Virus record (IMG/VR): IMGVR_UViG_3300027996_000026
Coordinates: 1 to 64,000 of that record
Strand: one strand, 5' to 3'
DNA: 64,000 nucleotides
Source: a virus
Shown: piece after piece, positions 3,039 to 59,048 of the stretch
How positions within the stretch are numbered: position 1 is the stretch's first letter
How the letters are laid out: each line of letters starts with the position of its first letter
Translations under genes and position numbers: made by a program
The notes under the pieces: generated by a model
Database searches by the model: none
What the model saw: the letters and a program-made list of their open reading frames with translations, nothing else
What the model was told of the DNA's origin: nothing

Positions 3039-3065
3039 AATATATTTTTTAATTGTAAAATAAAA

Positions 3066-3096
3066 ATACTATCAACTCATAATGAATTGATAGTAT
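3066..3096 (-). terminator. Intrinsic terminator after the SbcC-like gene
   Basis: A 10-bp inverted repeat (ATACTATCAA/TTGATAGTAT, 11-nt loop) lies 11 nt past the stop of the SbcC-like gene. In the minus-strand RNA it is followed by TTTTTATTTT. A new small gene starts just beyond. Confidence 0.7.
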
Positions 3097-3106
3097 ATTG
3101 ATAATG

Positions 3107-32861: not shown

Positions 32862-34199
32862 TTAATTTAAACCATTTATTTCCATATAAGTATTTTCATA
32901 ACTTTGACCTGCAAAGATATTAGCTAATTTATATTCTGTTGTATATTCTCTAAAATCATTTGTTGTTACTGGTTGAGCAATAACTGCAAATTTATTAGCT
33001 TGAACTTTAACAGCTACTCACATATCATTCATAAATTCATTTTCTGGAACTCTGAATCATACTAATTCTTTAGGGAATACATATGCTTTTGGAGTTAGTC
33101 CATAAATTCTATCAATTTCTGGAAGTACTATAAAGTTAATATCATTGAAGTAAGGAGTAGATAATGCTTTTAATCCGTATTCTATTTTAGCTGGGATAAC
33201 ATCATTATATACTTGACTACCTTGAAGTAATCTAGAAAATCTTGCAGAGAACTCTGTGTTACAGAAAACTGTAGGCTTTTCAGAACCAGTATAAACTGGA
33301 GCTGTAGAAGCTAAGTTTAATATTCTTTGTAATTCTTTTATGATTAATTTCTCATCTGTGATAGCTGACATGTCAAACTTAGAAGTAAGACCAGCTGCTT
33401 CTCTCTCTTCGATTACTGCTGTAATACCTTGAGCTTGAGGAGTTTCACCAGATACATTTTGTCAGAAGAACCATACATTAATTATGTTCTCTAGGATTTG
33501 CATCTTAGGTTTATTGAACTCATTAGAAATATATGTTTTAATATCTGATAGTAATCTAGTTTTATTTAGATCATCCCAATTCATTGTAACTGATCAACCA
33601 AATTTTTGGAAGTAAGTTATAACTGTTTTAGAATCTGGATCAGCTACTGTTCTTGTAACTTTATTACCAAGTGTTAATTCTGGAGCTACAAACATTAGTT
33701 TATCACCATCTTTAACTGTAACAGCTCAAGATAATGTTATTGTTTTTGTACCTACAGTTATCACTGTAATCGTTGCTTGAGTTTCAGTACCTACTGATCA
33801 TGGAGCTGGGATTGTTCTTACTATATCACCAACTGCAAATCATGCTACTGAAGCTACTACAACATCAGCTACTGCTGTAGCATCTGCTGTAAATTTAGAA
33901 CTAGTACTAAATGATTCTCATTCATACCATTCTACTTTTCTACCATCCTCAGTTAATGTTGCTTCAATTTTAGAAATTTTACTAAACTGAGTATCTTGGA
34001 AGGCTTCTAGCTGATGCATTGATCATGCTGCCGATCCAGAAATATTTCTCATTGCTTTATACCAATTAGCTGGTCAGAATCCTAAGTAAGCGAAACCAGG
34101 ATATTCTCTAACATATGCTTGCATAAAACCAATACCTTTACCAACTACTTTATTTAAAACATCATTTGTTTTAAATGTTCCTGCTTGTACTGCATCCAT
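32862..34199 (-). CDS. Major capsid protein (445 aa)
   Basis: Identified by position after the scaffold, by length, and by HK97-like features: an N-terminal helical arm, a beta-rich insertion (residues about 105-175) and the conserved-type segment YGLTPKAYVFPKELV near the end. Glycine codon use is unusual: about a quarter UGA and the rest GGT/GGA, with no UGA in the first ~40 codons, unlike neighbouring genes. A strong terminator follows the gene. Confidence 0.85.
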
Positions 34200-35119: not shown

Positions 35120-37009
35120 TTAAATTCATAGAGCATTCAATGCTGCTAAAGGATCTTCTACTTTATCCTCTATCTCTGCAGGTATATCTTCTGCTAATAA
35201 TTCCGTATTATCTATTCATTCATTCCCTTTGAAATCACTTTCCTCTTCAGTAAATCAAAACTTCTTAGGTCATTCGTTTCATACCTTAGCTCATTTATTT
35301 AACATTTTGAAATTCTTTAATTTATCTAAATCAAAGTCATCATCTAATAATGCATTCATTATCTCATCTACATTAACATCTTGCTTCATTTGAATCAACG
35401 ACATAAATATTTCTTTAATAATTCATCTCTTCTTTTCTTTCTCTATATTTCTTAGAGAATTAAATTTAAATGATATAGCTTCATCTCTTATAATCTTCTC
35501 TACTTCTAATTCATTTACATATAATTTTTTATCTTTAAATGTAATATTTAATCATAACTCTTTTAACTCAGCTTCAGTAAAATGTTTTAAGTATGTTAGT
35601 ATCCATGCCTTAGCTACTCATCACATCATTATTTGTACTGAATCAATTACTGGTGTCAGTTTAGATTTATATTGATCATGTATAAGATTTATAGAATCTG
35701 ATACTCTTTCTACTTTTGATTGACCTCATAGTAAATATCCATTTACTCATGCTCTCTTCTCAGTAATTTGTTCTACGAATTGTATTGTATTTATTGGACT
35801 AAAGTCATTTAATCATAAATCTAATCTCTTTATATCTGAATCTCAAGTTAATTTAATTGCTTTAAATTTTTCAAATCTTAATTTACCATCTCTTGATAGA
35901 GCTGCTACATTTCATTTAACTGTAAACATTCAAGATAATTGCATCTTCATATTATCTAGAAATCAATTCCAGATAGATGTCTGCATATTCTGTAAATGCG
36001 ATAGATTATCTATTTGTCAATTAGATGTTCATGCTCCAGGTATTTCATTAAAACTTATTCATCTTATAGATGATACATCTCAATCTAATATAGGTTCACC
36101 ATGATACAATAAATTTCAATCTATGTATACAGTTAATTTTCATTTACAAATATATTCAACTACTTCGTATGATCTCTTATCTTGTACTAAATAAAAGTTG
36201 TTTTTATCTATTGTAGATAGTTCATCTCTAACCGATCATATCATAGTACTTAGTGGTACTCAATTGTTATATGATTTTGTTATTATATTAGAAAAGTTAT
36301 TAATTCTTTTTATAGGATTGTAATCATATAAACTATATCTAGTTTTAGTTTTATTTGTTATAGCTAATACTTTATTTATAAATCAATGTATATTAACTTT
36401 CTTAGTTTTTCAGTCATCAAATAATACTCAATACTTATCTTTGATAAAATCTCATGTATTAAATACTCTTTTTATTTGATATCAAGATTTATTTATTCAT
36501 TGTACATCATCATAAAATACATTAAATATAGATATGAAATCTATACTTGGTTTTTTAGTTACTACTGTTTGTTTATATTTTCATTTAAGAAAAGTATATT
36601 CTTCTTTCTTTTTAAACAATGAAGTCTCAGTAAATCATTCTCATGTTATTAAGCATTCCTTTAATGATCATTTAAGTGCTTGCTTACCTTGTGATTTATA
36701 ATCAAATACATCTCAGCATAGATTTTTAAATATAGATTCTTGTACTCAGAATACAAAATTAAAATCAAATAGATTTGCAAATTCTGTATCTACTATAGAT
36801 GCTGCTAATGGATAACTAATATTTGTTTGCCATGATTCTATATCAGCTAATCTATCTAATGTGTATCATAGATACTGTTTATAGTTATTTATATACTTAG
36901 GAAATTTTTCTTGCTCAAATCTGTTTATAACATCTCTGATCAAAACATCTTGTTCCTCTAAAGCTTTAGTTTCTTTTTTAGTAAATGATTGTGTTTCAAT
37001 TTTTGCCAT
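35120..37009 (-). CDS. Portal protein (629 aa)
   Basis: The gene lies between the large terminase and the scaffold. It has the helical N-terminal clip region, central segment GVPLSTMIGSVRDELSTIDK and long wing/stem helices, with an acidic C-terminus (AEDIPAEIEDKVEDPLAAL). Its ATG overlaps the terminase stop by one base (TAATG). Size is in the podovirus/crAss-like portal range. No diagnostic active site exists for portals, so order carries the call. Confidence 0.82.
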
Positions 37010-39156
37010 TAGTATAAGTTTCAAGAATTATTATAATTAGAATTACTATTAATGTAATTACTACTATTGTATAGATGTTCATCTTCATTATCAAATTCGA
37101 CTCAATATTCCTGCCAAGTCTTTACATCTGTTAATCATAGTATAGTTACTATGAAGAATATACACATCATTAATGCATCTACTAAATCATCATGGCTATT
37201 TCATTTACCTTGATATTTAGCTATCAAACTATTTGTTCAAGTTATCTTAACAAAGTTTTTCATCTGATCTATTAGAGTTCAATGAACAGATGCTATATTC
37301 AATACTCATTTATCTAGCATTAGAGCTGTCATCTCTACCATATGTCGTTTACTTACTACATAAAATCATTTATGATTCCATGACCAATCTCAGTTACCTG
37401 TAAATTGTATCCAATAATCAACTACCATATCTTTCTTTTTATCTTCTTGCATTATTACTTTACCTATAGTTGTTGCATCTCATATAATTGTTATATGTTT
37501 AAGTTTATCTTTTAATATTTTTCATACTGTTAATTGTTCTAAGTATGGAACTCATTTTAATTCTTGAGTATCTATAGTTATTCTTTTAGTAATATTTAAT
37601 AATACAACTCATGCAGGATCAGAGTTACCTCAGAAGTCTATAGAAAGTACATAATAATCGCTCTCATTTCATTGTAACATAACTTGTGGCATAATACTAC
37701 CTACGATATTGAATACATTCCTCTCGTCTAATATAACACAATATGCTCTAGCATAAAATTCTTTTAATGATGCTTTCTTTAAGTTTCATATTGTAAAATA
37801 CATTAGATCATCTAGCTTTTTATTCATCAATTCTATTTGTTCTTCAGTCTCTACTTCCATATTAGATTTATAATCTAATTGATATAACTCTCTTTTATTA
37901 TTTATATCTACTCTTGTAGATGATATTAAGCTATCTCATAGTTCTCAGTCTATTAATAGTCTATAGAACCAATGATCTCTAGGAGTTTTTTCAGATATAG
38001 TAGTAATAACTAGCATATGTTCTGTCTCCATCATTGCTCTTTGAGAGAATAATGTCCAGAATGCATCTTCTACATAAGCTGCTTCATCTATAACTGCAAA
38101 GTCACAAGCTAATCATTCTCATGTTGATCATGATCAGAAATTATATAATGATACCATTCTAAATGTTGTACCAGTTAATGTACAAGTTATCTCTGATTTA
38201 CTTCTATTTATTTTTATAATAGGTTCTCAATTAACTTTCTTTCTAGTAAATTCAATTAAGAATCATTCCATATAATCCATTATACTTGAACCTACATTAG
38301 ATAGATCTGGAACGAAGTATTTAATCTGTCTTATCTTTCTTCATCAGAATCATGAACCTTGTTTAAATAATTCTGCTGCACATAGCTCTGCTGCGAAATA
38401 TGATTTACCAGATCACTTACTTGCTGCAACTACATTTATCTTAGCCCAATTTAATATTACATTCTTAGTCCAATCTAATAAATAATATCATGCTGCCTTC
38501 CTTAATGAATGCGTATATCAATATTCTCTATTTGGATCTCAGATATCTTTATTAGTATATCAAATTGATATTTCTTTTGCTAGTACTTCTTCTAAAGAAT
38601 ACTTTCATATAACAGATAATGTTCATTGTTTTGTAGAATTTAATCATTTATTATTATATGCTGAACTCTTAACTGCTTTAATATTTTCTTCTAAGAATCA
38701 TACCCTTCATAATTTTTTATTAAATCATAATGGGAAAGATTTTAATATCGGAACTAATATTAAATAATACTTATCACTTAGATATCATGATTTAACTAAT
38801 TCTTTTATAAAGTATTGTAATATAACTTTTGATTTAATCTCAGTTACATTACTAGACTTTAATAATTTTGGTAGCATCATTGATGTATTCTTAGTTCAAT
38901 AGAACTCTGCAAGTAATCAATCAACTTCGAAATCTACTTTAAATAAATACTTATGTCAATATTCATTTGCTAATGTTCTATCTAATACTTTTTTATCTAA
39001 TGAATCTAGATCAGTTCATTCTTTATACATCAATTCATTTGATCATACTATCTCATCTACATCAGCTTTAAATGCACCCAAGAAATTCTTGAGTGCTTTA
39101 AAGTATGTTAGATCTCATATATAACTATTATATTTTATATCTTTTAATGTTATCAT
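37009..39156 (-). CDS. terL: Terminase large subunit (715 aa)
   Basis: ATPase: Walker A VVAASKGSGKS (K251) and Walker B CDFAVIDEAAYV (D357-E358) with a following coupling motif VITTISE. Nuclease: acidic residues in YYVLSIDFGGNSDPAG (D507) and the C-terminal HDDLVDALMM. These are the packaging motor and headful/cos cutting domains. UGA glycine occurs inside Walker A. Confidence 0.95.
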
Positions 39157-39165
39157 GTTTTCTAA

Positions 39166-39453
39166 TTAATGTGTTAATTTATCTGTAGCACCTGGATGAA
39201 CGAATACTCATATGTTTAAACTCTTTAAACTAGCCTTACTTCAATGAATAGATTGTACATGTTTTAATAAATCTAATCTAGTCTGTAATGCTGAAGCTCA
39301 CTTATTGTCCTTTAAATCAGATAGTAAGTCCACTATTTCATCTATACTGTCTCCTAATGATAATCATTTTTCATCCAATATATTTGCTAGCTCTACATCT
39401 GTATTTGATTTAACAGACTTTTCATCTCATGCTAGTATTATCTCAGTATCCAT
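39166..39453 (-). CDS. Probable terminase small subunit (95 aa)
   Basis: A short helical, acidic protein (SLGDSIDEIVDLLSDLKDNK, then QTRLDLLKHVQSIHG) ending 9 nt before terL. Position and helical hairpin composition fit a small terminase that recognises the packaging site. The N-terminal HTH is not obvious. Confidence 0.55.
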
Positions 39454-39473: not shown

Positions 39474-42400
39474 TTAATTGCTAGTTATATCTCCTGGTAA
39501 TCCTTTGATCGTAGTCTTTCTTATTTTAATAGGACTTGTCTTTGATCTAGATGGTTTTGGTAAACTAATCTTCTTTTGTTTTGATTTTACAAATCATTTC
39601 TTTGGAGTTCATTTCTTTATATAAACTTTTGATTTAGTTGGCTGTGTAGCTGCCTTAAATGATTCTTGTATGAAATAAGAATTTATTTCTTTTATTATAG
39701 GGAAGTTTAAATAATTTAATTGTAAACTTTTTTGTGGTAATGATCCATATGCTATCCTATCAAAATTTTCTGGTATAGTTTTTCATTTAAGAAATTGTGA
39801 CATCTGAGGAAATTGTTTTCAGAATCATGGTCTAGGTCATCAAGCGAATGATGATGATTGTCAATTCTTAAAATAGTTTGGAAAATATTTTGATTTACCA
39901 CTACCACTTCAGAAGTTAGATACTTGATAGTTTGCTATAGAATCTGCATCAAAGTCTTGTATATTAGTTGCTGTCTTATAGGTCCAACTAATTAATTGTC
40001 TTTGTGCTGGTAGTGTTAATAAATTAAACACATCATTATCTCTTAGCATATCCCATGATGAATCATTCATTCATGATAGTACAGATGCGATTTTAGCTGT
40101 CTGTTCTTTACCTGGTTGAGTAGAGTTTGTTATCTCTCTAATATGTACTAAAGCTGCTTCCTTAACTAATTCTACTGCTTCTGCTGTAGGTTCTAATCTT
40201 TTTCATAATGGACTATAATATGTTAGTAATCATTTAAAAGATTTAGTATATTCTGAAGTTAAGTATTTTGCATTAGTATCTCACTCTTGTAAGTTTCTTG
40301 TTGAGATCGCTAATCAATTCATATAATCTTTTAATCAACTACTTGCTCATGCTTCTTGCATATGCTTATAAAGTTCTGGTTGATTTTTTTCTATATGTAA
40401 TCCAAATACATTCTTAACATTTTCTAGGTTAGCATTTAGTAATCATTGTGAACTTAATTCCTTCAATACTTTATATTTAATTCCTGCTTGTTCATCTTGT
40501 TCAAAATAGAATGCATCTTTATATTCTATTCATTTTTCTTCTTTAATTTCTTTTTGTATTTCTTTAAATCTATTTGTTGCTATGTATGAAGTTAAATGTG
40601 CTACACTTAATTCTGGTATATCTTTTTGTTTAGTTTCATAGAATAATTTTTGTAATGCTATTGTCCTACTTGAAGGTCTATTAACAAAGTCTTCTTTAGT
40701 ATATCAGATGTCAGCTAATGCTTTTGTGATGATGTCATCCATCTTATTACTATATAAATCTTTACCTGCTGTTAATATTTTTCTTCCTTTATCATCTAGC
40801 TGTTGTCATACTCATTGGTATACAACTATATTGTTCCAAGCTTTCTCTGTATATACTTGATCTAATTCTCAATCATTTACTAATATAGTATCAAGATTAT
40901 ATCATCAAGCTCATATTCATTTGTCATATAAATTTTTAACTTCTTCTGTAGATAACAATTGATTTACTCATGTAGTTATAGCTGCGTTCCCTAAGTATTG
41001 TGGTTTCATAAATGAAATAAATATATCTCATATACTTGCTCAATATCATAGAGTACTTACTCTTCAACTTCTATTTGCTTTTTGTAATTCACTTTGTGAT
41101 TCCCTTAAGTTAGATGGTATTCAATATCAGAACATTGATAAACTATCTTGTCCTTTCATTTGATCATACATACTTCAGATTAATAATCAATGTGCATTTC
41201 TCATATATGATCATACTGAGTTTTGAGTAGCCATATAGAATGCTTCTAGATATCCTTCTCATAATGTTTCATGTCTATTAACTGCTGAAGGGATTGTCTT
41301 GAAAAAATTAAATGGATTGTTTTTTATTACTCTAGTCATATGCTTGAACATCTCTATAGTTGTTACTTGCATCCTAAGAGCCATAGATTCATTTTCTCTT
41401 CATTGTAAGTTACCTAACTCTCTATCAAATAATATTTCTAGAGCTGCTAAATTATTTACTGCTGACTCTATAAACATTCATTTATTAGTTTTATCATCTT
41501 CATCGCTGTAATCATATTTACTTATCTTAGCTCATAATCATGCTGCCATTCAAATATTTAATAGCATTGCTGTATTATAATCTATAAACTCTTTCATTAA
41601 TACATTTCATCAATGTTTATCTCATTTCATAAATAATCTAATTGCTTCTCATCAAGCTAATTGTCTTTCTATTCAAGTAGTAAATTTATGAAACGCCCAT
41701 CAATTTAAAAATTTATATAATTGAAAAAATACTTTAGTTGTAAATCAAACTCACATTCATGTCTGACTTCATATCCTTGTAAGAAATGTTTCTTTGAATA
41801 TTGGCATATTAGATATTACTCAACCTCACATATCATTATGTTCTCTATAGAATAATATTTTGAATTTATCTTTTTCTCTAGATGTTGTAAGTACTTTATC
41901 TAATTGATCCTTAGTCTTTACTCAATATATTTCCATAAGTCTAATCGCTGATGCTTGTCTTCTAACAGCATCTTGTAACATATCTGTAGCTAGTAATGGT
42001 TCTGTTATAGTTGTATCTATAATATTCATTAACCTTCTTTGTAACAATGGATCTTTAGTTCATAACTCTTTAGTCATTTTCTTAACAATTCATTTGATAC
42101 CTTCAGATGCAAATTTTTGTAACTTACCTATCTTAGTATCTATATTTTGTTCTCATAATCTTTGTCAATGTGATCAAGCGTCTTCTCATAATAATTTATA
42201 TTCTTCTACTACCTTAGATGCTTCTGCTATTTGAGATGGTGTTGCCTTTCTTAAAAATCATAACATCTCTATTGTATTTCATAGTACTTGAGTCAATCAA
42301 GCTATATGTCATACTCATCATAAGAATAATGATGTTGTCTGATATGCTCAATGATAATATGCTGCTTGCGTTTCTCTGATTAAACTTAATAATAAGCTAT

Positions 42401-45400
42401 CATCTTTCTTAACAAAGAGTACATCATACATATCATTTGATTGTTTGATATTAAATTTAGTTCAATTTGCTTCAGCTCATTCCTTCATATATTTATTAAA
42501 CTCTCATCTTGGACCAACGAATGCATCATCCATTGTTCATGTCTTTGTAATTATTCATAGTCTTCTTAATTCAAATTCGAAGTCTCAAGTAAATAATCAA
42601 ATTAGATCTTGAAGAAATCATCAAGAAACATTTATTCAATAGTTTAATTTATATCATCAGCTATCTTTATAATATTGATCCATTTGATTTAATCAATTCA
42701 TCAATGGTGGTAGAATGTCTTCAGCTATTTTTTTTCAATACTTATTTATTATCTCAGATTCATTTGCTTCAAATTTCTTAACAGAAAATTTTCATAAATC
42801 TTCTAAATATCATTCTGCATTAAATACATGCCCTTTATCTGTCTCTGCTGTATGTTTTTTAATTCTTGCTAGTATTTCATCATAAGCTCTTACTTCAGTT
42901 CATTTAAGAGATCCTAATGCTTTTATTTCTTTTTTTAATCATTGTTCTATAGTGATCATTAATTCTTTGACTGCCATAGTAGCACTTCAATTTAAATCTC
43001 TTGCTGTTAATACCTTTCACATTATTTCTGGTCTCCATGAACTAAGTACTGATTCAAATTTTAATTTAATTCAATCTCTTAATAATGAATCTACACTTGA
43101 TGCTGATTTAAAATCATCCATTAATTTAATAAAATCTCTTTCTCATATCTTATGAGTAAGATTTAGATTAGAAATATAATCATCTGGAACATAAGATGAT
43201 TGTAAGTCAGTTCAAAATTCTTCTAGTATTGTAGCATCAGCTATTTCTTTATCACTATTCTTTGTTAATCAGTTTATATATTCATCTAGTTTAACTATCT
43301 CTTGCTCTAGATCATTTATCTTATCTGAAGTATTTTGTATATCTGATATAAATCAATCAGCTCAATCAGCTATACTATCTATAGATTCTCTTATCTCTCA
43401 GTAATCTGTAACTCAAGCATCTTCTATATCATCTATAGATTCTGTCATATTAGATAATTCTTTATTTTTTAATTTATATTCATCATACATTTCTAATGCA
43501 TCTGAACTTAATTCTCAAATATCATTTTCTAATTTATTTTTTGTAGATCTTAATTGATCTATCTTTTTATTGATAGGAATATTTTTACTTAAAATAACTA
43601 TTGGTTCTAGTCATCTATTATATTTATAAATAGAATGTGCTGAACTTAATAATCTTTTCTCATCAGAAAAATTTAATAAATCTAATTTATCTCAATCAGT
43701 TAATAAATTAAAAATATTTGAATTTCATTTAGATAAAGAATATAACGCTACTAAATCTCTATAAGATTTTTCTACTGCTAATTCTCATTTAGAATTTATA
43801 ATATCTTTTCAATCTACTTTAAATTCAGAAATAATTTTATGATGATTTATTCTTCATGTAACTTCGTTTGTATGTTTTAAATATAATTCATCTAGTTGTA
43901 ATACTATATTTGTTACATCTCTATCTTTTAAATTTAATTTAGCTTGATCTTCTAACTCTATTAATCTTTGAAAATCAGATTGTATAATATCTCTAGTATC
44001 TTGAGTTATAAAATTTGTTTTCTTTTCTATAACTGTATCAACTAATTTATTTAATATAATTCATCTTTGAGTTTTTGGATCAAACTCATTTTTCATTTTC
44101 TCTAATATAAATTCTGGTTCAGTTGCATTACTTAATTTATTTATTATCTGTGCATATTTATTTCAGAAGTCTGTAAACATTGATCTTCTATATCATAATA
44201 TACCTGCAAGTATTCATTTCTCTCACATAGGTGAGTTCTTTTTAATAGCTAGTCATCTTACCTTCGCAAGATTTAAACTCTTGTCTCACGCCTTATGTGA
44301 TGCTCACATAGGTGATAGAATATTATTAAATAAATATTTAATAGTTTCTGGATTTTTTAATCATAATGATTTCATCATATCTTTAATCCATACTTCCTTT
44401 GGAAATGGATTACCTGTTTTATCTTTAGCATAGTCCATAATTAATTGAACTATAGATCAAGTTTCAGATCAATATGTATTTGATTTTTTAAATACATCTC
44501 AGTATCCAGGATTAAGATTTCATTCTAATCTTTTAATATTATCAAAAATTTCTTGAACTGTTTCATATTTATCTTTCTCAAATATTTTTCATTTCTTTAT
44601 TATAATCTCTTTTCATTTAACTTTAATCTTTAGTATATTACTAGCGTGTGGATGATCTGTAATTATTGCTTGTTGATATTGTAATAATATATTAGCTCAT
44701 CTTATAACTGACATTCATGTAGATATACTTAATTTAGCTTCAAGATTCTTAAACCTATTCTCAGATAAACTAAATGTTTTATCTGAACGATCTGCTTTAG
44801 TTTGAGTTATTATTGCAATAGTATTATTATAATCTGATTTAACTGTTCAATATAAATCTCAAGCCATATCTAATCACATTGCTGTTCTTGCTATTAACTC
44901 AGACTTATCTGATATAATAGGAAACATAACAAAGTGATCACCATCATTATCTCATTGTATCTTCATGTATGTAGTCTCTGGATGAAGTATAACATCATCT
45001 GATTTAACTTCCTTACCTAATCATACATCCTCTGCTAAAATAACCTTATACACTCAAAGGTTCTCTTTGTTTGGTATAGGGTTTCTTAATCAAGTAATAT
45101 ATATTTCTTTATTTTCTAACTGATCTTTTAAAAATATTAATTTATTATTTTTTTCTGTTAATATTTTTTCATTTGTAATACCTTCTGATATTTCTTTTTG
45201 TAGACTGTCTATGTTTGTTTTTAGATCTCTTACTGCATTCTTATATAAATGAGATTCCTTAGATACTATGATTTCATTTCTCTCTAGTCTAGTTTTTCAT
45301 TTAGACCATCTAGATATAGTTTTCGTGTTCATCGCTGCCTTAGATCTCTTTGGTAGGTCTATTAATGAATATAGTATTGTATGTGATGCTCACTTCTCAG

Positions 45401-48400
45401 TACTTCATGATATTAATTCTTTATATCAATCTAAGAAACTTTTAAGTCTAGCATTAATCATTGAATCAGTTGTTCATCAAACATTATGAAGTTTTTGTAA
45501 ATTATTTAAAAATAAATTCATATCTCAGAATGATGCAAGTTCTTGATCATATCATCCTAATCATCATAATGTTTCTTCGAATAATTTTTCTACCTCTTTA
45601 ACCATTACTCACTTATATGCTGTCAATACATCATAGTCCATTAAATTCACTATCTGTTCTGATAGTGTTTGATCTTCTTTAATTGTTTGTGCATCAGATG
45701 CTGCGTCTTTAAATCATCATGTATTAGTTCATTCTATTTCTCATACAACTTTAAATGTTCTTCAGTTTACTCTAACTGTTTCTACTTTTGATTTACTTAG
45801 TCATCATTTTAATTTTAAACTACTTTCACCAATTAATACTACATTGTCTTGAGTTTTATAAGACATTGCATTCTTATCATAGACTTGTATATCAGCTCTA
45901 TTAAATAATGTCTTAGCTAAAAATCTATTATTATCTTTTGCATATCAAGTATAATGAAATTTCTTAGCTCTATCACTTTCAGTAAACATTCACTTATCTA
46001 TTAGATCATGCATCTTAGCTAATGCATCAGACATATATGATGTACCATCAAATAAATCTGTAGCATATACTGTATCAACATATGATTCTAATTCTTCTAA
46101 AGTTTTTCATTCAAATCTTTCTTTAGTTAATGTAGGATCTAAATTGATTAACATATCTACATATGTATCTGTATCTATAAATAATTCAGTTTGTTTATCT
46201 AAATCTCTTTTTGGATTAATCCTATCTAGTTCTTCAGATATATTAGCAAGAATTGTTCTTCAAGTTACAAGATTATTCTTTGTTCATGTAGTATGTATCT
46301 CTTCTCATAGTACTAATGTTTTAGTATCTATCTCTACATCTCAAAATTCTTTCTTAGTAGATGCTAATGCTGATTCTCTTTTAACTATATCTGATATAGA
46401 TACAAATCATTCTTCAGTTTTAAATCATCATGATTCAATATATTTTTCTGTAAATTCTACTTCAGCTTCTTTAAATGTTTTACCTTCAGCTTTATATACT
46501 TGTAGAGAAGTTTCCTTGTCACCGTAAGTTCACATTATATATTCTCATTCTTGTAATCATAATTGTTCTCTAATACTATCTTTGTTTTTAGATTCAATTA
46601 ATCAATTAGCTATATCTGTTACTACTTTTAATGTTTCTATTCAAGTATTATAATCGTCTCTAGACTTCTTTGATTTTAATAATTTAGTTTTTAATATATT
46701 ATTAATTGTAATATTTTCTCATACACTTAAATATTTTAGATCATCTACTTTATTAATAGATATAGATCTAAATCATTCTAATCAATTTTCTTTTAATTCT
46801 GTTTCAAATAAACTATTCTGTTTTATTTGTCATTCCTTTCTAGTAAGTTTGTATATTGGATATCAATTTTTATATCTAACTAATTCTCTAGCTATTGTTA
46901 TTCAATCAGTACTAGCATTATGTAGAGTTTTAAATTTAACATATAAATCAGAATACATTTTATCATTAGCAAGTAGCTGTCTACTCTCTGCTACTGATTT
47001 AACTTTACCTGTAGCTCAATCAACTAATTCATATCTTAATCATAATACTCATGATTTAGTTTCAACTCATTTTATATATTCATCTAAGAATGATTTGAAT
47101 GCTCTGAAATTTTTTCAAGCTTCAATTGATATATTTGATTTAACTCCTGGTGTTAAATTCTTTCATTTAATATCTATATCAAATTTAAATGAATCTATCT
47201 TAGCCTTAAAATCATTACTAGAAAAATATAATTCTTGTAATGTTTTTGGATCAGTTCATTCCTTTACTGTAAAATCTTTTTTTATTGCTGCGAATAATTG
47301 TTCTCAAACTACTTCTTCGCTATTACCAGCTCAAGAGAATGCTGTATTGAATGCTTTAAAGATAGGGTTTTCTTTTTTAGATATATCCAGATCTCTTTTA
47401 TTATCTACTAGATGTCTAATATTTTTTAATAATTGTTCTTTAGATATAAATCTAATAGCGTCTTTAGAAAATATTCATACCTTTGCTACTATTGGTTCTG
47501 GTATTCATGCATTATATTTAACTTCTATTTTTGTTTTACCTGCTACCTTACTTAATAGATCTTCTATTGCTCAATCAACTGTAGATAAATATTCTATAGA
47601 TTCTTCTTTAGCTATAGCTCTATATAATTCCTCTAATGTTAAATTCTGTTTATTATAAACTATCTTTAATGCTGTTGGCATTTTATGTGCATTCTTTATT
47701 ACATTCACTTCTTGTTGTAATAATGAATCAGCTTTACTTAATTCTGTTTGTAATTTTTTTATTTCTGATTTATTTTTCTGTATATTCTTTTTTAATTTGT
47801 CCATAGTTTCTATAGTCAAATCAACTCATACTTTTTCTACATCAGATAAAGGATCTTGTGTTACTTGCGTTTTCCCAGACTTTAAAGATATTTCCATAGT
47901 TTCTATCTCTTTAGTTCTTTTGCTTATCGCATTAACTAATTTCTCTGTATCTTTAAGCGTTCTTATTCCAGTCTTCTTTGATTGAGGTAAACTATTTATA
48001 ATTCAATCAAATTTAATTAATTTAGCTTTGTATAAAGAATCGTATGTTCTTTTAAATATAAGCTTAGAATAATTTTCTATAAATTCTTTTTTCGAATAAT
48101 TAAAAGTTTCATTAGCTATTTTTAATTTTCTTTCTAAATAATCTTTTTGATTTTTATTAAAATTTATTTCTTCAGCTAAGAATAATTTAGAATCTAATTC
48201 TTGTAATTGATTTTCAATTCTAGTAATAGCTTCAGTTCTTTGTTTTATTATTTCTTCATATTTAAGTTCTGCTTCTTTTTTATAATGATTTAAATCAAAC
48301 TGATTAATCATTTCTTCTGATCATCTAGTAATAGTTTTTTCTCATGATAAAGAATCTATAAGAGTATTAAAATTGTCTATAGTCTTTATTATTTTATTTG

Positions 48401-51400
48401 AATCTATATCTTTAGCATTATTTAATCTATTTAAATCTAAATCTACTTTTTTAAATAATTCAAAATTCTTTACAACTCTCGTTGCAAATACTTCAAATAT
48501 ATATTTAGCTAATGGATCTTGATCAGCTTCCTTAGTAAACTTAGTCATGATAAATTTCTCTATGTCTAATCATTTTTTATTTATCTCATCTCATTCAATT
48601 ATTTTATTTTCTTTTAATAATTGTTTTATAAAAAGTTTCTTAGCATCATATGTGATTGTTTCAAACTTTCAAATATTATTAAGTGGTCTAGCTAGATCTA
48701 TTCAGTCCTGGATAGTTACTTGTGAAAATATATCTTTTATTATTTTAGAACTCTTTGCATGATATTCTTTGAATGTACCAGATACATCAAATCATAAATC
48801 AGTCATTTCCTTTCAAACTCAAATATAGAATAAATTCTTTACTTCTCATTTATTTGGTCATTTAGTGACTAACATTTCACCATATGTTATTACTATCTTT
48901 GCTTGAGTATTTGCCATATCATCAGCATATTGTTGTCTACCAAATCTTTTTCATTTAACTAATTTATTATCTTTACTTGTTCAAGCATCTACATATCAAA
49001 TGTCTTTTCCGAAAATTCATTCATGATATATTTTTTTACCTTCTGGAGTTGTCTCTGTATAATTTCATAATATCTTCTTAAGTTTATCTATTTCTTCATA
49101 AGTATATTGATTACTACCAGATGAATATGGATGTGTTTCGCTACCTTCATTTAAACCTTTATTAAATAGTTTTAATAATTCTGGACTCTCACTACTTAAT
49201 TTATTAAATAGATTTCATTTCTTTGCTGATACACTATATGTTCAAGCCTTATCTAATCATAAAGTTACTTTATTTTTATCTGTTACTTCTAATATTCAAG
49301 TATCATTTAATTTTTGTAAATCAACTCATCATTCAAATTCTAATAATTTATTTAAATTATCTACTGGTATTTGAATAACTTCATTTGTTATTGGATTCAT
49401 TAATGTTAATACTGCAGAAATTTTATCAGCTAAGTTTGCTGTAGAATTTCTTAAAGTATATAGATCTGAAAATAATTTTATCATATCTAATTGTACTCAA
49501 TCTAAATCTCATGATGCTTTTTTTGCTTTTATAACATTAATAGCTCATGTAAATTTAGCTACCTCTGCAGCTTTAGTAGTAGGATTTAATTTAATTATAG
49601 CTTCTTGAAATGTTTTATTTCATTGTACTGCTGATATAATATCAGACATTTGTTTATCTAGAATTGCATTTCAAATTTTAGCATCAGTTAGATCTTCTGA
49701 CTTAGATAATTTAATTCATCTATCTACCTCATTTTCAAATCAAGATTTTAATGTAGTTAAATTATCTACCTTTAATATACCACCTCATGTAGTAATCATT
49801 TTATTTGCTTTATTTAAATCTCATGATTTAAGTTTCTCATATGCATCACTAAAATTCTTATATAATTTTTCTAATGCTGCTTTATCTTTTGCTTTTGATA
49901 CATCAAATAATTCACTTAATCTTTGATCAGTAATACTATATACAAAGTCTCTTTGAGTAGCCATTAATTTATATGCTTCTGATTGTGTAAGTTTAGGATT
50001 TTGTTCCATATAAAACTTAACTGCATCTTTAGCTGAGACTTCTCATAACATATATGATAAAGAGTTTTGTACTAGTGAGTTTCAACTTATAGCTGAATCT
50101 ATAGCTGAAGTTCATATAGATGGTGTAGATGATCATAATGTCTTATATGCGAATGGTTCTATAAACATATCAGAGAAAAAATCAGTCATAGCGTTTGCAT
50201 CTGTGTCTGTTATTCTCATCTGTTTATTTATATTTGGATTAATTGTTCATCATTCTAATCAACCTCTTAATCAATATAATCAAACTCTAGATGTAGTTAA
50301 TCATGTATCTACTGAATAATTAAATAATTTATTTATTGAATTTAAGTTTTGTCAAGATCTTGCTTTCCTTAAATTAGTAGATATGTTTTTTAATGTTGTT
50401 GTTACTCATCATATTGCCTTTGCTGGAACATTAATCTTGTTTCATACATTAGCTATATTTAATACTTCAGTTATATCATCAGTATTATAAACTATATGTT
50501 TAAATAGTTTTATAGGTAATGCATCTGCTGCTGTAGTTAATTCATATTCATCATAGAATATTTTATCTGTATCATTTTGTTTTATAGTTGCACTAGCTAT
50601 TGCAGATACTGCAGAACCGAAAGGTAAATCTAATGATTGCATTCATAATTGTAATACATTTCATATTGCTAATATTGTTCATACAGCTCATCATTGATCT
50701 GCTCTTCTTTTTAATTCTTCAGTATTATAGTACATAGCCATGACCGTATCTGTACCATCTCTTATTACTAATGCCTTTCTATTTTCTTCAGATAGATCTG
50801 ATATAGCATCACGATATGCCTGGCTTATTATTTTATCTTTAGTGTAATCTAACTTATTATCTATTGTACTTATATCATCTAATTTAGTTATTTCAGTTTC
50901 GTATTTTTTTAATACATCTCTAAATAATGTTTCTCTTGCTTCCATCTGTGGTAATAACATACCTTTTATCTTTGCTCTTTTTTCTGGATCTTTTACTGCT
51001 GCTAAATTCTCATAGTAGTTTGTTTGATCTCTAGTTATCTTTTCTTTTATAGTTGATATCATATCACTAAAAACACTATCAGAAGCTAGCTTAGAGTTCC
51101 ATTGTACTCATTGCATTATCTCTTCCATCTTAGTGTCTACTATTTCTGTTCATATATATTGCTGAGTTCTTACTGCAGCATTATCTGATATATTATAATT
51201 GAATGTATCTAGAGGACTTTTTCATTCTCTTGGTTGTACATATTCATCAGCTATTATTTTCTTTTGAACATTTCTATATTCTACTATAGATTTATTTAAT
51301 GATTCAATGTCTTCATTATAATCTTCATCAAGCTTTGCTTGCTCGTCTTGCAATAATTCTTGCTTCCTATTATAAATATAATTCTGATCATTTAATAATT

Positions 51401-52049
51401 TTTTATCTTTGATTTCTTGTTTTACAATTTTATCTAGTCTACTATTTAATTCTAGATTATATTTATCACTAAATACATTTACTTGTTTTTGTATATGATC
51501 TGGTAAAGGTGCTTTATCTATTTCATTAAACTTCATTTGTACTTCTGACCTATCTCATTTTTTAAATTCAATATCATCAGTATCAAATAATCAAAATGGT
51601 TTAAATCATAATATATCTAATTCATCTAATCATGTAGATGCTATAAAGTTTGCCTTACCTAGATTGTCTTGAAATCATTTAATAACATTACTATGTTTAT
51701 TCTCATCATTATCTAATGTAGCTCATACCTTTGGATCAAAGAAATCTCATATAGCTCAGAAATATCATCATGTATTCTCATTAGCTCTTGTAGCTACTTC
51801 TTTTTTATCGTCATCATTTCATGTGAATAATGTTCATATATCTTTTGCTGTATCTACTACAGCACTAAATGGTGATATTTCATAATTCTTCTTTAATGAT
51901 TGTCAAAATGATTTGACTTGTCATATAAAAAATCAATCTTTTTCTTTTGGTATTTCTTTTACATTAGTATTTCATACTAGATTTTCTGTTCCATTAGGAA
52001 TAGTAGGTTTAGTTCATGGAACTAACTTTGTTGTGTCTTCTATTGACAT
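39474..52049 (-). CDS. Giant virion RNA polymerase-like protein (4,191 aa)
   Basis: I checked the frame codon by codon: no TAA or TAG from 52049 to 39474. Residues 2365-2375 read QGDNDGDHFVM, containing D2367-x-D-G-D2371, the metal-binding motif of two-barrel RNA polymerases (bacterial beta' NADFDGD). Upstream, R2322-N-P and ILHPETTYMKI mirror the beta' 'R-x-P...LHP' strand, and LFDGTSYMSD at 2001 fits the first barrel. Giant single-chain virion polymerases are known in crAss-like phages; they are injected to transcribe early genes. Over 1,800 residues follow, ending in a Lys-rich basic tail. Other domains were not recognised. Confidence 0.75.
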
Positions 52050-52067: not shown

Positions 52068-52481
52068 TTATTTAAATCTTTGGTGCGTGTGAGTTAAAAG
52101 CTCTTTCATACTTTCTATAATAGTATAATTGATGCATTCTATTTCCAGGTACTCAATGATTTTTGGATCAGCTTCATATATAAGAACTTCTATTTTTTCT
52201 TCGAATAAATACTTCTTAGTTTTTTCTAAAAGTTTTGTATGTAGCTTCTTATAGTATAAAGAATCCCCTTCAGTTTTCAACTTTAGTAAAAACGAAAAAA
52301 TAGTATTGATAAATAGTCAATTACCATAATACAATTGTTGTACTAAGGTTTGATATTTATCTAATACTATTATTCAATGTTCAAACATGTTATCTATGTT
52401 AATCCTATATAGGTCTATAAAATCATTATCTAATCTGAATTGATAATCTATTTCGATTCTTGTTTCTATAAGTATTTTCAT
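52068..52481 (-). CDS. Hypothetical protein (137 aa)
   Basis: It begins MKILIETRIEIDYQFRLDND and is a mixed alpha/beta charged protein. TAAACAATTAAAT precedes ATG. It sits directly upstream of the giant polymerase gene; a chaperone or packaging partner is possible by position only. Confidence 0.65.
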
Positions 52482-52491
52482 ATTTAATTGT

Positions 52492-53298
52492 TTATATATT
52501 ATTTCATTCTTTCTCTAATAACTCTGTTAAGTATATAAATGCTTTATTTAATACTGGATATATTTTATAATCCTGTCTAAATAATGCTGCTGTTAGTAAA
52601 TATATGTATATAAATCTTCTTTTATTTCATTGTATTTTTCAAATATTATTATAAATCATTAAGCATCATTCTGTTAATGCATCTTTTTCTAATTGATTAT
52701 CTATAATATTTTTAATATCATTATCTTTAATAGTCATTGCATCAGCTCTTGATGCTATTGATATATCAGTTTTATCTAATCATGTGAATAAAAAGCTCAT
52801 ACTCTTCCAGTCTATATCTGATAATCATGTTAGATCATTATTCTTTTTCTTTTCTGTAATCACTTCTTTCTCATCGGCTGTTAATGCCTGGTCAAAGAAA
52901 TCATCATATTCTCTTATCTCTCATTCTTTTACTGGTCCTTCTATTATATCTTTTAATATTTGATAGTTTGCTTTATCTGGTACATCCATATTCAAATCGT
53001 TTATTAGATTCTCTAGGATCTGTACAAATATTCATACAACTATATGTTTCTTTCAATAAAATGATATTGCCGTAGCAAAAGCTTGATTAAATTTTCTTTC
53101 ATTAAATGGAATCTTTTTAGTCATATTAGAATATGATCCTTGATAATCCATACCATTAATAAATTTCATTAGTCTAATAACAACCTCTATTTTAGAATCT
53201 CTATCTGAGATATCCATTCTTTGTATATTATATATAGATGGTAAGTTCCTATATTGTTCTATATCCTTAACTATTAATCTTAGTTTTGCATGTAACAT
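52492..53298 (-). CDS. Hypothetical protein (268 aa)
   Basis: It begins MLHAKLRLIVKDIEQYRNLP and is helical throughout, with an acidic central part (EYDDFFDQALTADEKEVITE). It is the first gene of the leftward late operon after the divergent gap. Family unknown. Confidence 0.7.
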
Positions 53299-55999: not shown

Positions 56000-56038
56000 A
56001 TAATAATAATTATTAATAAATATACTCTAACGACTCTA

Positions 56039-56066
56039 ATACTACGTTTAATTAAATTAAAGTCAA
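56039..56066 (-). promoter_or_regulatory. Promoter for recA
   Basis: TTGACT (56061-56066), 16 bp, TAGTAT (56039-56044) on the minus strand, 40 nt before the recA start. Confidence 0.6.
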
Positions 56067-56456
56067 AAGTTTATTTATTTTTACAGCATCTATAAATTCA
56101 TATTTCTGCCCTAGAGAGTACCCCTTTGTATCAGCATCAACAAGCCAAAAAATTTTTTTCTGATATAAAAATCAAGACAATATCTAGATGATCTGGTTCA
56201 ATTATATTTGTGCTTTATGCTTATTGTAACTACTTATTGCCTATAACAAGCCATAACCTTATTTCCACCATATCAGTAATCCAATTTTAAAGCCCCCATG
56301 AGTACCGTTCTTTTCAGCATCAATAAGCCATTTATTTTTTTTATGTCTATACTTTACCTGGTGATTAGTAGATAAAATGGAAAGGGGTACTCCTATACTA
56401 TACTACTACTTGGGACATATATACCCCCCCTTCGACAGCAGCAGCATCAGCTTTTT

Positions 56457-56819
56457 ATTTGTTTGTTTTTTAGTTTTGTTTTTATTTTGTTTTTTTATTT
56501 TATTTTTTTAATGTGTTGTGTGTATTTGTTTGTTTGTATTAGGCGAGGGTTGGCTTTGGGATAGGGTTTGTTGTTGTGTTGTTGTGTGTGTGTTGTTGTT
56601 GTTTGTTGTTGTTGTTGATTGTTTGTTGTATGTATGTATAGTAGTGTTTGTGGTTGTGGTTTTGTGGTTGTTGTTTTGTGGTTGTGGTATTGTAGTGTTG
56701 GCTTGGTAGTGGGAAGGAGAGGTTATAGTTGAGGAGTAGTTTTATATGTTATGGTGTTTTTGTTTGTGTGGTTTTTTGTTTTTTGTTTTTTGTTTTTTTT
56801 GTTTTTTTATTTATTAGTA
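56457..56819 (+). other. GT-skewed low-complexity stretch
   Basis: The plus strand is almost entirely T and G, with TTGTTGTTG-like runs and very few C or A, for about 360 nt. ORFs in it are composition artefacts. It could favour R-loops or single-stranded DNA and lies beside a purely A/T stretch. Confidence 0.8.
56539..56562 (+). repeat. 24-nt motif, copy 1
   Basis: Consensus begins TTAGGCGAGGG and ends GGCTTTGGGAT. Copy 1 lies in the GT-rich stretch; the other copies are at 57327 and 58053, all plus strand. Confidence 0.8.
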
Positions 56820-56916
56820 TTATATGTATATATAGTTATTATATATATATATTATAATATTTTTATATATTCTAATATATATAGTATAATTATATATAAT
56901 AGTAATTAGGGCGAAA

Positions 56917-57016
56917 ATAAAGAGCTATTTTCTGAGTGGGAGATTAATAACAAAGGATTGTTATTATGGTATCTCTCATCAGATGACTAGCTCTTTATTG
57001 TTCTTGTTTTTTGATG
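56917..57016 (+). ncRNA. Possible structured small RNA (long hairpin plus U-rich end)
   Basis: Nested pairings: AAAGAGCTA/TAGCTCTTT (56919-56927 with 56988-56996), CTG/CAG, GGGAGAT/ATCTCTC and AATAACA/TGTTATT, giving one long stem of about 78 nt. It is followed by TTGTTCTTGTTTTTT. The immediately preceding DNA is A/T-only, which could include a promoter. Transcription is inferred. Confidence 0.45.
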
Positions 57017-57065
57017 GTTTTAGTTTTGATTAAATCTATACTTATAGTATATGGATTTAATAGGA

Positions 57066-57094
57066 GAAAGCAAACTTTAGTTTGACTTTCTTTT
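57066..57094 (+). terminator. Possible plus-strand terminator hairpin
   Basis: GAAAGCAAAC pairs with GTTTGACTTTC (one bulge) and is followed by TTTT. It may end a plus-strand non-coding transcript. Confidence 0.4.
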
Positions 57095-57326
57095 GCGACT
57101 CGATTCTGGTTAAGCATAGAACTTATTCTAGTTCATTAGTTTTAGTATTGCAATTAGTAGGATTTTTGTCGGATAGATTTCTGGGAGGTTATTACTGGAG
57201 CATAGCTCTTACCTTAATTAATGTGTTTCTTTTTCTGGACTCTTCTAGTTATGTTTCGTAGGTGCTACATTCAGTAGAGGATGGCGTTGTATGACACTAG
57301 GTCTCGTGTGGTTAGCTTTAGCTTTA

Positions 57327-57350
57327 TTAGGCTTAGGGCTGGCTTTGGGA
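57327..57350 (+). repeat. 24-nt motif, copy 2 (diverged)
   Basis: It reads TTAGGCTTAGGG then CTGGCTTTGGGAT. It is directly followed by an 8-bp perfect hairpin CTTGTAGA/TCTACAAG at 57352-57371. Confidence 0.7.
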
Positions 57351-57364
57351 TCTTGTAGAATAAT

Positions 57365-57460
57365 CTACAAGTAATTAATAGCTATTTGTGTATAAGCTAT
57401 AATTGATATGAATCACCATAGTAATAGTGATGCTATATTGTTTATTCTAAATAGTTTCAT
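57365..57460 (-). CDS. Possible 31-aa single-pass membrane peptide
   Basis: MKLFRINNIASLLLWGFISI then a hydrophobic end; one UGA Gly. A single transmembrane helix is predicted by eye. It ends in TAG inside the 57352-57371 hairpin. Too short for certainty. Confidence 0.3.
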
Positions 57461-57576
57461 AATGTAATTTTAATAATAAATATAATTGAACATATATATA
57501 ATGTACAACTCGCTGAGCTGTATCTGATATATACATATGTTCAAAGAAATATTTTATATAATGTATCTTAGTACAC

Positions 57577-57900
57577 TTATTTATTTTCTTGAGCTTCTTT
57601 ATATTTCTCTCAAGTATATATTCCTGTATCAGATAATTCTTCATCTGATAATGTATCTATATCCCACGTATCTGTGGGATTAAGTAATTCTCATTTAGCC
57701 ATTCTGGCTGCTTTCTCTTTAGAGATAAATGGTTCTTCTCAAATAACTTTTATATCAAAGAATTGTTTTACGTAATCATACTTACTCTTAATATATAATA
57801 AGTGTGATACTGATTCTCTATTCATATGATTGTCTATATCTATTCATCTATGTGAATATTCTATAATCTCATATGGTATTCTTATTGGTAGTTTAGACAT
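57577..57900 (-). CDS. Hypothetical protein (107 aa)
   Basis: It begins MSKLPIRIPYEIIEYSHRGI, with an acidic C-terminus (TWDIDTLSDEELSDTGIYTG). It lies alone between non-coding stretches, with an AATATAAAATATTCTT element upstream that recurs upstream of the gene at 58523. Function unknown. Confidence 0.65.
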
Positions 57901-58052
57901 AATAATTTAATTAATAATAAAATAGTTCAGAAGAATATTTTATATTGTGCATTTAAATGCGTTATAAGAGATTTAAATAGTAATGACTAATGTCTTATCC
58001 TATTATTATCTTCCGATTAAAATAGAGTTAGCTATCTATGATAGATAACGAA

Positions 58053-58076
58053 TTAGGCGAGGGCTGGCTTTGGGAT
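58053..58076 (+). repeat. 24-nt motif, copy 3
   Basis: It differs from copy 1 at a single position (C for T in the middle). It lies 5 nt upstream of the large inverted repeat. Confidence 0.8.
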
Positions 58077-58080
58077 ATTG

Positions 58081-58239
58081 TAATCTAATCAAATTAATTT
58101 AATTAGTTTTGAAATAGGATATACAATATAGTGACCTTGTTGTAACTACATTAAGTAATTACATTTCAACTTGTAGTTGGTAACGGGCAGTCACGATTGT
58201 ATATACTATGATAAACTAATTAAATTAATTTGATTAGAT
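58081..58239. repeat. Perfect 29-bp inverted repeat with nested stems
   Basis: Arms 58081-58109 and 58211-58239 are perfectly complementary over 29 bp. Inside, 58118-58135 and 58190-58206 pair again (ATATACAAT...GTGAC with GTCAC...ATTGTATAT), and an inner AACTACA/TGTAGTT stem closes the top. The whole can fold into one long rod on either strand. Confidence 0.85.
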
Positions 58240-58310
58240 TACTTGTTTGTACAGGCAGACTAGTACACCTAACAGGATATCAAGTATCAGTTAGATGCAG
58301 TAAGTAAAAA

Positions 58311-58345
58311 AAAAGAGTAAGACATTATAGTCTTACACTTTTTTT
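58311..58345. terminator. Bidirectional terminator
   Basis: GTAAGAC/GTCTTAC (58317-58336) is flanked by an A-run on the left and T7 on the right, so it works for both strands: the 39-aa gene on the minus strand and any plus-strand RNA from the structured region. Confidence 0.75.
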
Positions 58346-58463
58346 ATTCTATTACTCAACTGTTTGTTTTGATAGCTTTAGCTATCTTGCTTTGTGATAT
58401 ACTTCTGTACTCACTTCAAGCTGAAGCATCATATGCTTTAGTAACTCTTTTTAATTTATGCAT
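58344..58463 (-). CDS. Small basic protein (39 aa)
   Basis: MHKLKRVTKAYDASAGSEYR... is basic and helical, and is bracketed by two terminator hairpins. This makes it a monocistronic unit. It may be a DNA-binding regulator; no motif supports this. Confidence 0.5.
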
Positions 58464-58491
58464 TGTAATCTTATTACTAATATAAAATAAT

Positions 58492-58519
58492 AAAAGCTTA
58501 GAATTTAATCTAAGCTTTT
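58492..58519 (-). terminator. Terminator after the 126-aa gene
   Basis: An 11-bp repeat AAAAGCTTAGA/TCTAAGCTTTT is followed on the minus strand by TTATTATTTTAT. It lies 4 nt past the stop of the gene at 58523. Confidence 0.65.
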
Positions 58520-58522
58520 ATA

Positions 58523-58903
58523 TTATATAGAGTCTATGTCTTCTTTAGATGACACTCTTCTATCTGCTAACAGCTCTTTAAATCTATTTGATTTTACATA
58601 ATCAGTTTCATAGATTTTCTTATTAGTAACTTCATCAACTTCATCAGTTGGTGTAGATACTCTACAAGATAACTCGTTAGTCTCTGGGAAGATAGCTAAT
58701 TTAAGTGAACTATCATCTAGAACATAACCTCTTATATTAATATAAGTAGTTGCTGGTTGAGTTTTAACTTCACCTTCAGCATCAGTAATTTCTTTAGAAG
58801 CATTTCTTGAAATGTCTTCTAAGAATATATCTTGTTCAGTTAAACCGAACTTAGATAATACTTTAGTTTCTAAAGTATTCAATTTAATAGTACTCATAAT
58901 CAT
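58523..58903 (-). CDS. Hypothetical protein free of UGA codons (126 aa)
   Basis: MIMSTIKLNTLETKVLSKFG... with a second ATG at 58897. All its glycines are GGT and none is UGA, unlike nearly every neighbour, which suggests a need for strong or early expression. It has its own terminator and an upstream region with direct repeats. Family unknown. Confidence 0.75.
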   Translation of the reverse strand: MIMSTIKLNTLETKVLSKFGLTEQDIFLEDISRNASKEITDAEGEVKTQPATTYINIRGYVLDDSSLKLAIFPETNELSCRVSTPTDEVDEVTNKKIYETDYVKSNRFKELLADRRVSSKEDIDSI

Positions 58904-58966
58904 ATAGATTAAGAAATAAAAATAAGGAAGGATATTACTCTTCCATAAGAATATTTTATATTATGT

Positions 58967-58999
58967 ATTTCAAGTACACAATTAATTTCAAGTACACAA
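58967..58999. repeat. Direct repeat ATTTCAAGTACACAA (two copies)
   Basis: Copies at 58967-58981 and 58985-58999 lie 18 bp apart, upstream of the UGA-free gene. They may be operator half-sites for a regulator. Confidence 0.6.
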
Positions 59000-59048
59000 G
59001 TCTCTGGATATTATTTATTATACCTCTTATAGATCTTTGTAGACTGTA

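Follow-up and report, generated by a model that had tools for sequence, protein, structure and literature searches.

The RNA polymerase (RNAP) of Thermus phage P23-45, gp96, is a virion enzyme fused to the tape measure protein (TMP), and its minimal active fragment spans residues 327–1124, around D779 (PMC10770324). The TMP carries membrane and peptidase domains, and its gene lies among the tail genes. The virion RNAPs of crAss-like phages, which include phi14:2 gp66 (PDB 6VR4), crAss001 gp50 and the fusions of crAss002, cr1_1, cr4_1 and LMMB, are giant single chains, too. By annotation, the single RNAP ORFs of these phages are ~4,070 (LMMB), 4,245 (crAss002), 4,491 (cr4_1) and 4,551 (cr1_1) residues long, and that of cr4_1 also contains many standard stops. 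A crAss-type RNAP signature (RTPTSSHKS...GLDYDIDK; score of 35 with the crAss DPBB-A HMM) is also found in a ~4,401-residue virion protein of Flavobacterium phage Fpv2 (NC_031931.1 34343-47548), which is not classified in Crassvirales. The polymerase of phage N4 belongs to the T7-like fold and is devoid of the DxDGD double-psi barrel. In N4 (Schitoviridae), the virion RNAP gp50 (~3,500 residues) consists of an N-terminal domain, a polymerase at residues 998–2103 and a large C-terminal domain (PMC12633501). Two-barrel phage RNAP families share little outside the DxDxD region (PMC10770324).

The locus described here is found in a 64,000-nucleotide stretch of DNA (the window), positions 1-64000 of the 66,648-bp uncultured virus record IMGVR_UViG_3300027996_000026. 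Its giant ORF (39474..52049, minus strand), 4,191 residues long in genetic code 25 and possessing a full-length ortholog, is a candidate single-chain virion RNAP. We consider it probable that the protein is a virion-packaged single-chain two-barrel (double-psi β-barrel, DPBB) DNA-dependent RNAP.

Similar to P23-45 gp96, the window protein is a giant single polypeptide with an F/L-R-N-P loop and a DxDGD-x5-P motif at a similar spacing, and the two align in register in hhalign. Unlike gp96, with which it has no overall sequence similarity, it carries the polymerase signature in the middle of the chain (D2367 of 4,191 residues) and not at the N-terminal end (D779 of 5,002), and its gene is located upstream of the terminase. 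With the crAss-like enzymes it shares the giant single-chain organization and the R-x-P...DxDxD arrangement, and the crAss trigger-loop motif VD.aKD resembles its MDYAKD. However, the crAss loop reads YRIPT and the triad DFDID or DFDVD, whereas the window protein has R-N-P and DNDGD, and blastp, hhalign and HMM tests detect no homology between the crAss RNAPs and the giant ORF. The terminase large subunit (TerL), portal and major capsid protein (MCP) of the window phage have no crAss-type match, and its genetic code is different from that of crAss-like phages. The likeness to N4 gp50 is one of layout only: a putative N-terminal ejection domain, a predicted central polymerase and a large C-terminal part.

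The original prediction drew attention to a size roughly twice that of the well-studied enzyme. This is true with respect to phi14:2 (2,180 residues) but is no novelty when the crAss-like ORFs of ~4,070–4,551 residues and the 5,002 residues of gp96 are taken into account. What is new here is the family itself, the mid-chain position of the predicted polymerase and its setting in a phage with UGA read as glycine.

Reading frame, genetic code and the orthologous genome

The giant ORF starts with an ATG at 52049 and ends with a single TAA at 39474 on the minus strand (translation table 25). It contains 251 in-frame TGA codons and no further internal stop, which bears out the earlier claim that this 12.6-kb frame is open in code 25 only; under table 11 the ORF is absent. 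The coordinates given originally are correct, and the strand, which had been left unstated, is minus. The frame is not open by chance because the remaining five frames over the same DNA hold 54–429 TAA/TAG codons each. At the TGA positions of the giant ORF, the ortholog displays TGA 65 times, a GGN codon 23 times and Trp three times. The excess of GGN over Trp indicates that TGA is decoded as glycine, and, as judged from this alignment, TGA is a glycine codon in the phage of the giant ORF. The description of the virus as a CPR phage derives solely from the genetic code; predicted phages of Absconditabacteria and Gracilibacteria often use code 25 (PMC10746230).

The ortholog is a 4,657-residue protein, likewise encoded in code 25, in the 64,028-bp record IMGVR_UViG_3300000216_000001 (L131:4274-18244). 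The record was detected with a pattern that places a TGA-coded glycine ahead of the Walker B motif of TerL. The two giant proteins align end to end with 31% identity, and the insertions of the ortholog are found chiefly near residues 2830–2960 of the window protein. About 25 genes are collinear between the two genomes, with identities of 68% for the primase-helicase, 65% for the MCP, 64% for the portal protein, 63% for TerL and 36% for RecA. Both genomes keep the order giant gene, small gene, TerL, portal and MCP on the same strand. The giant protein diverges faster than TerL, portal and MCP (63–65%) and yet retains its place; fast evolution has likewise been reported for crAss RNAPs (PMC7886860).

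In the window, TerL (37009..39156, minus strand) matches phrog_2 with an E-value of 6.7e-18. The portal protein (35120..37024, minus strand) has a weak match to SU10_portal (E 2e-4, below the cut-off), and the MCP (32862..34199, minus strand) a weak match to phrog_14242 (E 4.8e-4). The 95-residue ORF between the giant gene and TerL (39166..39453, minus strand) has a counterpart of 46% identity in the same place of the ortholog genome. The terminase neighbourhood that had been proposed is thus confirmed for TerL, while the small subunit is assigned by position only, with no family match to this ORF in the family search. Directly upstream of the giant gene, two small ORFs of 137 and 268 residues (52068..53298, minus strand) have orthologs of 45% and 33% identity in conserved order.

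The ortholog is the one relative that these searches yielded. Single-protein seeds of the giant ORF or TerL in viral contigs, and the RNAP core in genome contigs, found no relative. In tblastn searches of a phage collection (50,697 records, crAss-like phages included), neither TerL, MCP and portal nor the giant ORF itself had a match. DNA patterns for GDNDGDHF, for GDxDGDx followed by four hydrophobic residues and a proline, and for a TGA-coded DxDGD found no relative of the giant ORF; the DxDGD patterns returned just a smaller RNAP-like protein, L010, and a family of tail proteins that carries PGDLDGDALLIVP and is unrelated. RecA-based searches led to unrelated records only. In-frame TGA codons are also numerous in the terminase-like ORFs of further virus records (L121, L125 and L127), which are unrelated to the window phage.

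Catalytic signature and layout of the giant protein

The catalytic signature is contained in a DPBB-A-like region (residues 2250–2380; 44910..45302, minus strand), in which the order of motifs is the same as in P23-45 gp96 and gp64, phi14:2 and L010, and the hhalign alignments with L010 and gp96 are in register. It consists of an R-x-P loop, R2322-N-P2324 (45078..45086, minus strand), to which F-R-N-P corresponds both in the ortholog and in P23-45 gp96, and a predicted Mg2+-binding aspartate triad, D2367-N-D-G-D2371 (44937..44951, minus strand), which reads DFDAD in the ortholog. The sequence QGDNDGDHFVM, with D2367, D2369 and D2371 at the residue numbers originally given, and upstream of it R2322-N-P and an LHP strand, are present in the ORF as predicted. 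Residues ~2315–2376 of the window protein read YITGLRNPIPNKENLGVYKVILAEDVGLGKEVKSDDVILHPETTYMKIQGDNDGDHFVMFP, and the ortholog reads YVFRNPVPNKENTGVYKIRFAEDVGLNK...HPESIFFKLQADFDADTVISIP over the same signature, which in short is GLRNPIP...QGDNDGDHFVMFP in the former and FRNPVPN...QADFDADTVISIP in the latter. The glycine of the triad is replaced by alanine in the ortholog, with all three aspartates retained. Residues 2323–2352, which comprise the R-x-P loop, form the top-scoring 30-residue window of the entire alignment between the two giant proteins.

In the window protein, R-x-P is followed after ~42 residues by DxDGD, five further residues and a proline, so that R-x-P falls within 40–55 residues upstream of the triad. 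This spacing agrees with that of P23-45 gp96 (FRNPV...GVDFDGDTLVVLP), gp64, phi14:2 and the crAss RNAPs. The proven P23-45 enzymes read FRNPVMGHGG...STGVDFDGDTLVVLP (gp96) and NRRPDLPTG...PTGADYDGDIGYVFP (gp64), and the proven phi14:2 enzyme, identical in sequence to PDB 6VR4, reads GYRIPNQGQ...KTGSDFDIDKMYVMLP. The order common to the window protein and the proven phage RNAPs is R-x-P, strand, strand, aspartate triad, strand and proline.

DxDGD alone proves nothing because it occurs, together with hydrophobic residues and a proline, in the unrelated tail-protein family. This widespread family of ~150-residue phage proteins (L006, L008, L012 and most other pattern loci) carries PGDLDGDALLIVPVKLILP, a convergent DxDGD that can mislead motif-based RNAP searches. 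A loose pattern, R.P-x(30,70)-D.D.D-x(3,6)-P, was matched in three of 2,000 composition-preserving shuffles, and a strict one, R.P-x(30,70)-D.DGD-x5-P, in none of 10,000. The loose pattern had 16 hits in 484,000 residues of ORFs from the retrieved loci. Seven of them are RNAPs or the RNAP-like L010; the others represent off-frame noise or stem from loci chosen for the tail-family DxDGD motif. Among these hits, R-N-P followed by DxDGD-x5-P is found elsewhere only in gp96 homologues and L010. The comparison of sequences supports an RNAP-type DPBB-A signature, in the correct order and with the correct spacing, that is kept in an ortholog of 31% identity.

No RNAP profile or PDB sequence was matched significantly when the giant ORF was compared to Pfam, PHROG and the PDB. 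PF00623, the model of cellular β', was silent, as were PF05183 and PF00562; the silence of PF00623 and PF05183 is uninformative because neither detects the enzymes of phi14:2 and P23-45, which are proven RNAPs. PF00940 (T7-like RNAP) had no match in the giant ORF and was silent in the control genomes, too. A two-row profile of the window protein and its ortholog aligned in hhalign with L010 (E 0.0056) and P23-45 gp96 (E 0.018–0.06), in both cases exactly at the catalytic motif. The gp96 match (E 0.018) was equalled in none of 60 shuffles, and, as a yardstick, the proven crAss and gp96 families match each other with an E-value of 0.0052 over 32 columns. The best partner, L010 (GRNPMVG...MFGDEDGDAVIMIP; also GRNPMVG...GDEDGDAVIMIP), is a single-chain RNAP-like protein of 1,021 residues (L010:2185-5250) from IMGVR_UViG_3300045974_000102 (115,882 bp). 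Unlike the giant ORF, it is small and written in the standard code; it is itself uncharacterised, and the phage collection, PHROGs and the PDB contain no relative of it. When short HMMs were used, the best matches other than self were in register but scored within the range of shuffled sequences, and the crAss motif HMMs did not detect the giant ORF. The statistical link to known polymerases suggested by these sequence comparisons is weak. Single-sequence AlphaFold2 models of the window sequence have pLDDTs of 34 (941 residues) and 42 (206 residues), which are too low to judge the fold.

The predicted polymerase core (residues ~1800–2720; 43890..46652, minus strand) was delimited approximately, with the minimal active fragment of P23-45 and the conservation as guides. 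In two-barrel RNAPs, a second barrel (DPBB-B) that bears catalytic lysines precedes DPBB-A, and a bridge helix and a trigger loop follow it. The predicted core contains two further motifs that were matched by eye. A DPBB-B-like motif (residues 1995–2085; 45795..46067, minus strand), FDGTSYMS ... KKFHYTGYAK ... VVLIGESSLKLKGG, resembles the crAss DPBB-B (TDAQAWIT...QPLKGV...PTYLKYS) and reads RDGAGFAS...KYHIVGNVK...YVIDKSGLKL in the ortholog. A trigger-loop-like motif, M2538-D-Y-A-K2542-D (44421..44438, minus strand), resembles VDNAKDP of phi14:2, in which Lys-1615 is the trigger-loop lysine (PMC8713982), and reads LDYAKS in the ortholog. In profile tests, both motifs performed no better than shuffles.

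The N-terminal region (residues 1–1800; 46650..52049, minus strand) is a candidate ejection or packaging domain with ~19–36% identity to the ortholog per 100 residues and no family match. The C-terminal region (residues ~2721–4191; 39477..43889, minus strand) aligns with the ortholog at 32% identity over residues 2957–4190 and ends in a basic tail, the final 191 residues containing 31 K/R and 10 D/E. The more than 1,800 residues that follow the catalytic motif, flagged as unexplained in the original prediction, are not peculiar to the window phage: the ortholog has them as well, and several of the best-conserved windows lie within this part.

Alternative readings and proposed mechanism

What is demonstrated is the ORF together with its ortholog, the conservation of the catalytic signature and that of the place beside the terminase, portal and capsid genes; several readings can be considered. 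The chain might be a giant protein of the virion or of ejection that lacks polymerase activity, with DxDxD as a structural metal site or as the remnant of a decayed polymerase. Such a reading would be in keeping with the lack of RNAP profile matches, the large unrecognised part of the chain, the occurrence of DxDGD, hydrophobic residues and proline in the tail-protein family and the glycine-to-alanine change in the ortholog. We find this unlikely: decay would not retain the three aspartates and R-x-P at 31% identity, with the loop being the best-conserved part, and, among the pattern hits, RNP plus DxDGD-x5-P was otherwise found in gp96 homologues and L010 only. The protein could also be a true two-barrel RNAP that is absent from the virion and transcribes later phage genes, as P23-45 gp64 does. 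Two-barrel RNAPs outside virions are common (PMC10770324), but single-chain enzymes of this kind are small (616 residues in gp64 and 1,021 in L010), giant fusions are of the virion type (P23-45, crAss, N4), and both genomes have the giant gene directly ahead of the genes for TerL, portal and capsid, with the strand shared; a non-virion role is decidedly unlikely.

The giant size and the motif likeness, which is closest to gp96, might point to a P23-45-type fusion between an RNAP and a tail tape measure protein. Such a fusion is very improbable, given that the core is mid-chain and not N-terminal, that the gene precedes the terminase and is not among tail genes, and that the window protein contains neither a clear transmembrane segment nor an HExxH motif. 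The giant protein of the ortholog genome has two HExxH tetrads. An EF-hand-type calcium loop, the start of which D-x-D-G-D resembles, can be practically dismissed: loop position 6 is not a glycine and position 12 is not acidic in either the window protein (DNDGDHFVMFPI) or the ortholog (DFDADTVISIPL), and the EF-hand pattern matches nothing in the giant ORF.

For the preferred reading, a virion-packaged two-barrel RNAP, we infer the fold, the second barrel, the activity, the packaging and the timing. Residues ~1800–2720 would form the polymerase, with D2367, D2369 and D2371 holding Mg2+ and R2322-N-P forming the adjacent loop. Packaging, ejection and regulatory domains would make up the ~1,800 residues that precede this core and the ~1,470 that follow it. 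The protein would be made alongside the head proteins and then packed into the capsid. Upon infection, it would thread through the portal and tail in a partly unfolded state into a host that reads UGA as glycine and then refold; partly unfolded passage through the portal and tail has been proposed for the cargo of crAss001 (PMC10172136). The polymerase would then use phage-specific promoters to transcribe the first phage genes as the genome enters the cell. A virion role is the most likely one for the giant ORF, with packaging argued from the position of its gene in the operon alone.

Other features of the two genomes and implications

A 24-nt motif, ACACAACTACTAAAAATTTTNTGG, is present in five copies with at most one mismatch in the ortholog genome. 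All copies are intergenic, lie between ORFs and point in the direction of the gene strand (L143 3531, 6910, 7731 and 8117, and L142 11976; G001:C1 23536, 26915, 27736, 28122 and 11976, respectively). No close copy is found in the window. The motif is promoter-like, unlike a sigma-70 promoter, and may, as a hint, be a target of the giant-ORF enzyme.

The ~3-kb region 56000-59048 of the window contains few conserved ORFs, a local reversal of GC skew and a G/T-rich low-complexity tract, which is syntenic to a C/A-rich tract of the ortholog genome (L143 8978-9337). A GC-rich 20-mer, TCCCAAAGCCAGCCCTCGCC, occurs here three times on the minus strand (56542, 57331 and 58056), and AAGAATATTTTATATTATGTAT occurs three times as well (57545, 57931 and 58947). 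The region is a candidate origin or regulatory region. It also contains a perfect 30-nt inverted repeat (58080-58109 / 58213-58242) with arms 103 nt apart.

Elsewhere in the window, a 1,972-residue ORF (14458-20376) is richer in GC than the DNA around it, matches no family and has no counterpart by tblastn in the ortholog genome; it is a candidate receptor-binding or host-range protein. A 276-residue ORF (22886-23716) contains 65 TGA-coded glycines, and its neighbour (25343-26467) has a weak match to BclA_C; the two appear to be collagen-like fibre proteins in which reassigned TGA codons abound.

A wider interpretation, which we put forward tentatively as a possibility somewhat short of an even chance, is that the giant protein represents a separate branch of single-chain two-barrel RNAPs, outside crAss/QDE-1 and P23-45, which is carried on an ejected giant protein in UGA-recoded phages of Absconditabacteria and Gracilibacteria. 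Such an enzyme might allow transcription to start independently of the host RNAP, from its own type of promoter, in a reduced episymbiotic host.

If the assignment of the giant ORF is right, virion-packaged two-barrel RNAPs extend to code-25 phages, and an RNAP family too diverged for present profiles is added to those described. Each new family helps to order the two-barrel RNAPs and bears on the question of whether the single-chain form is old or a simplification. The assignment would show, too, that virion RNAPs escape notice in recoded genomes that are not read in the correct code. The assignment would also suggest that phages of CPR bacteria in which UGA encodes glycine start the transcription of their first genes without the host RNAP.
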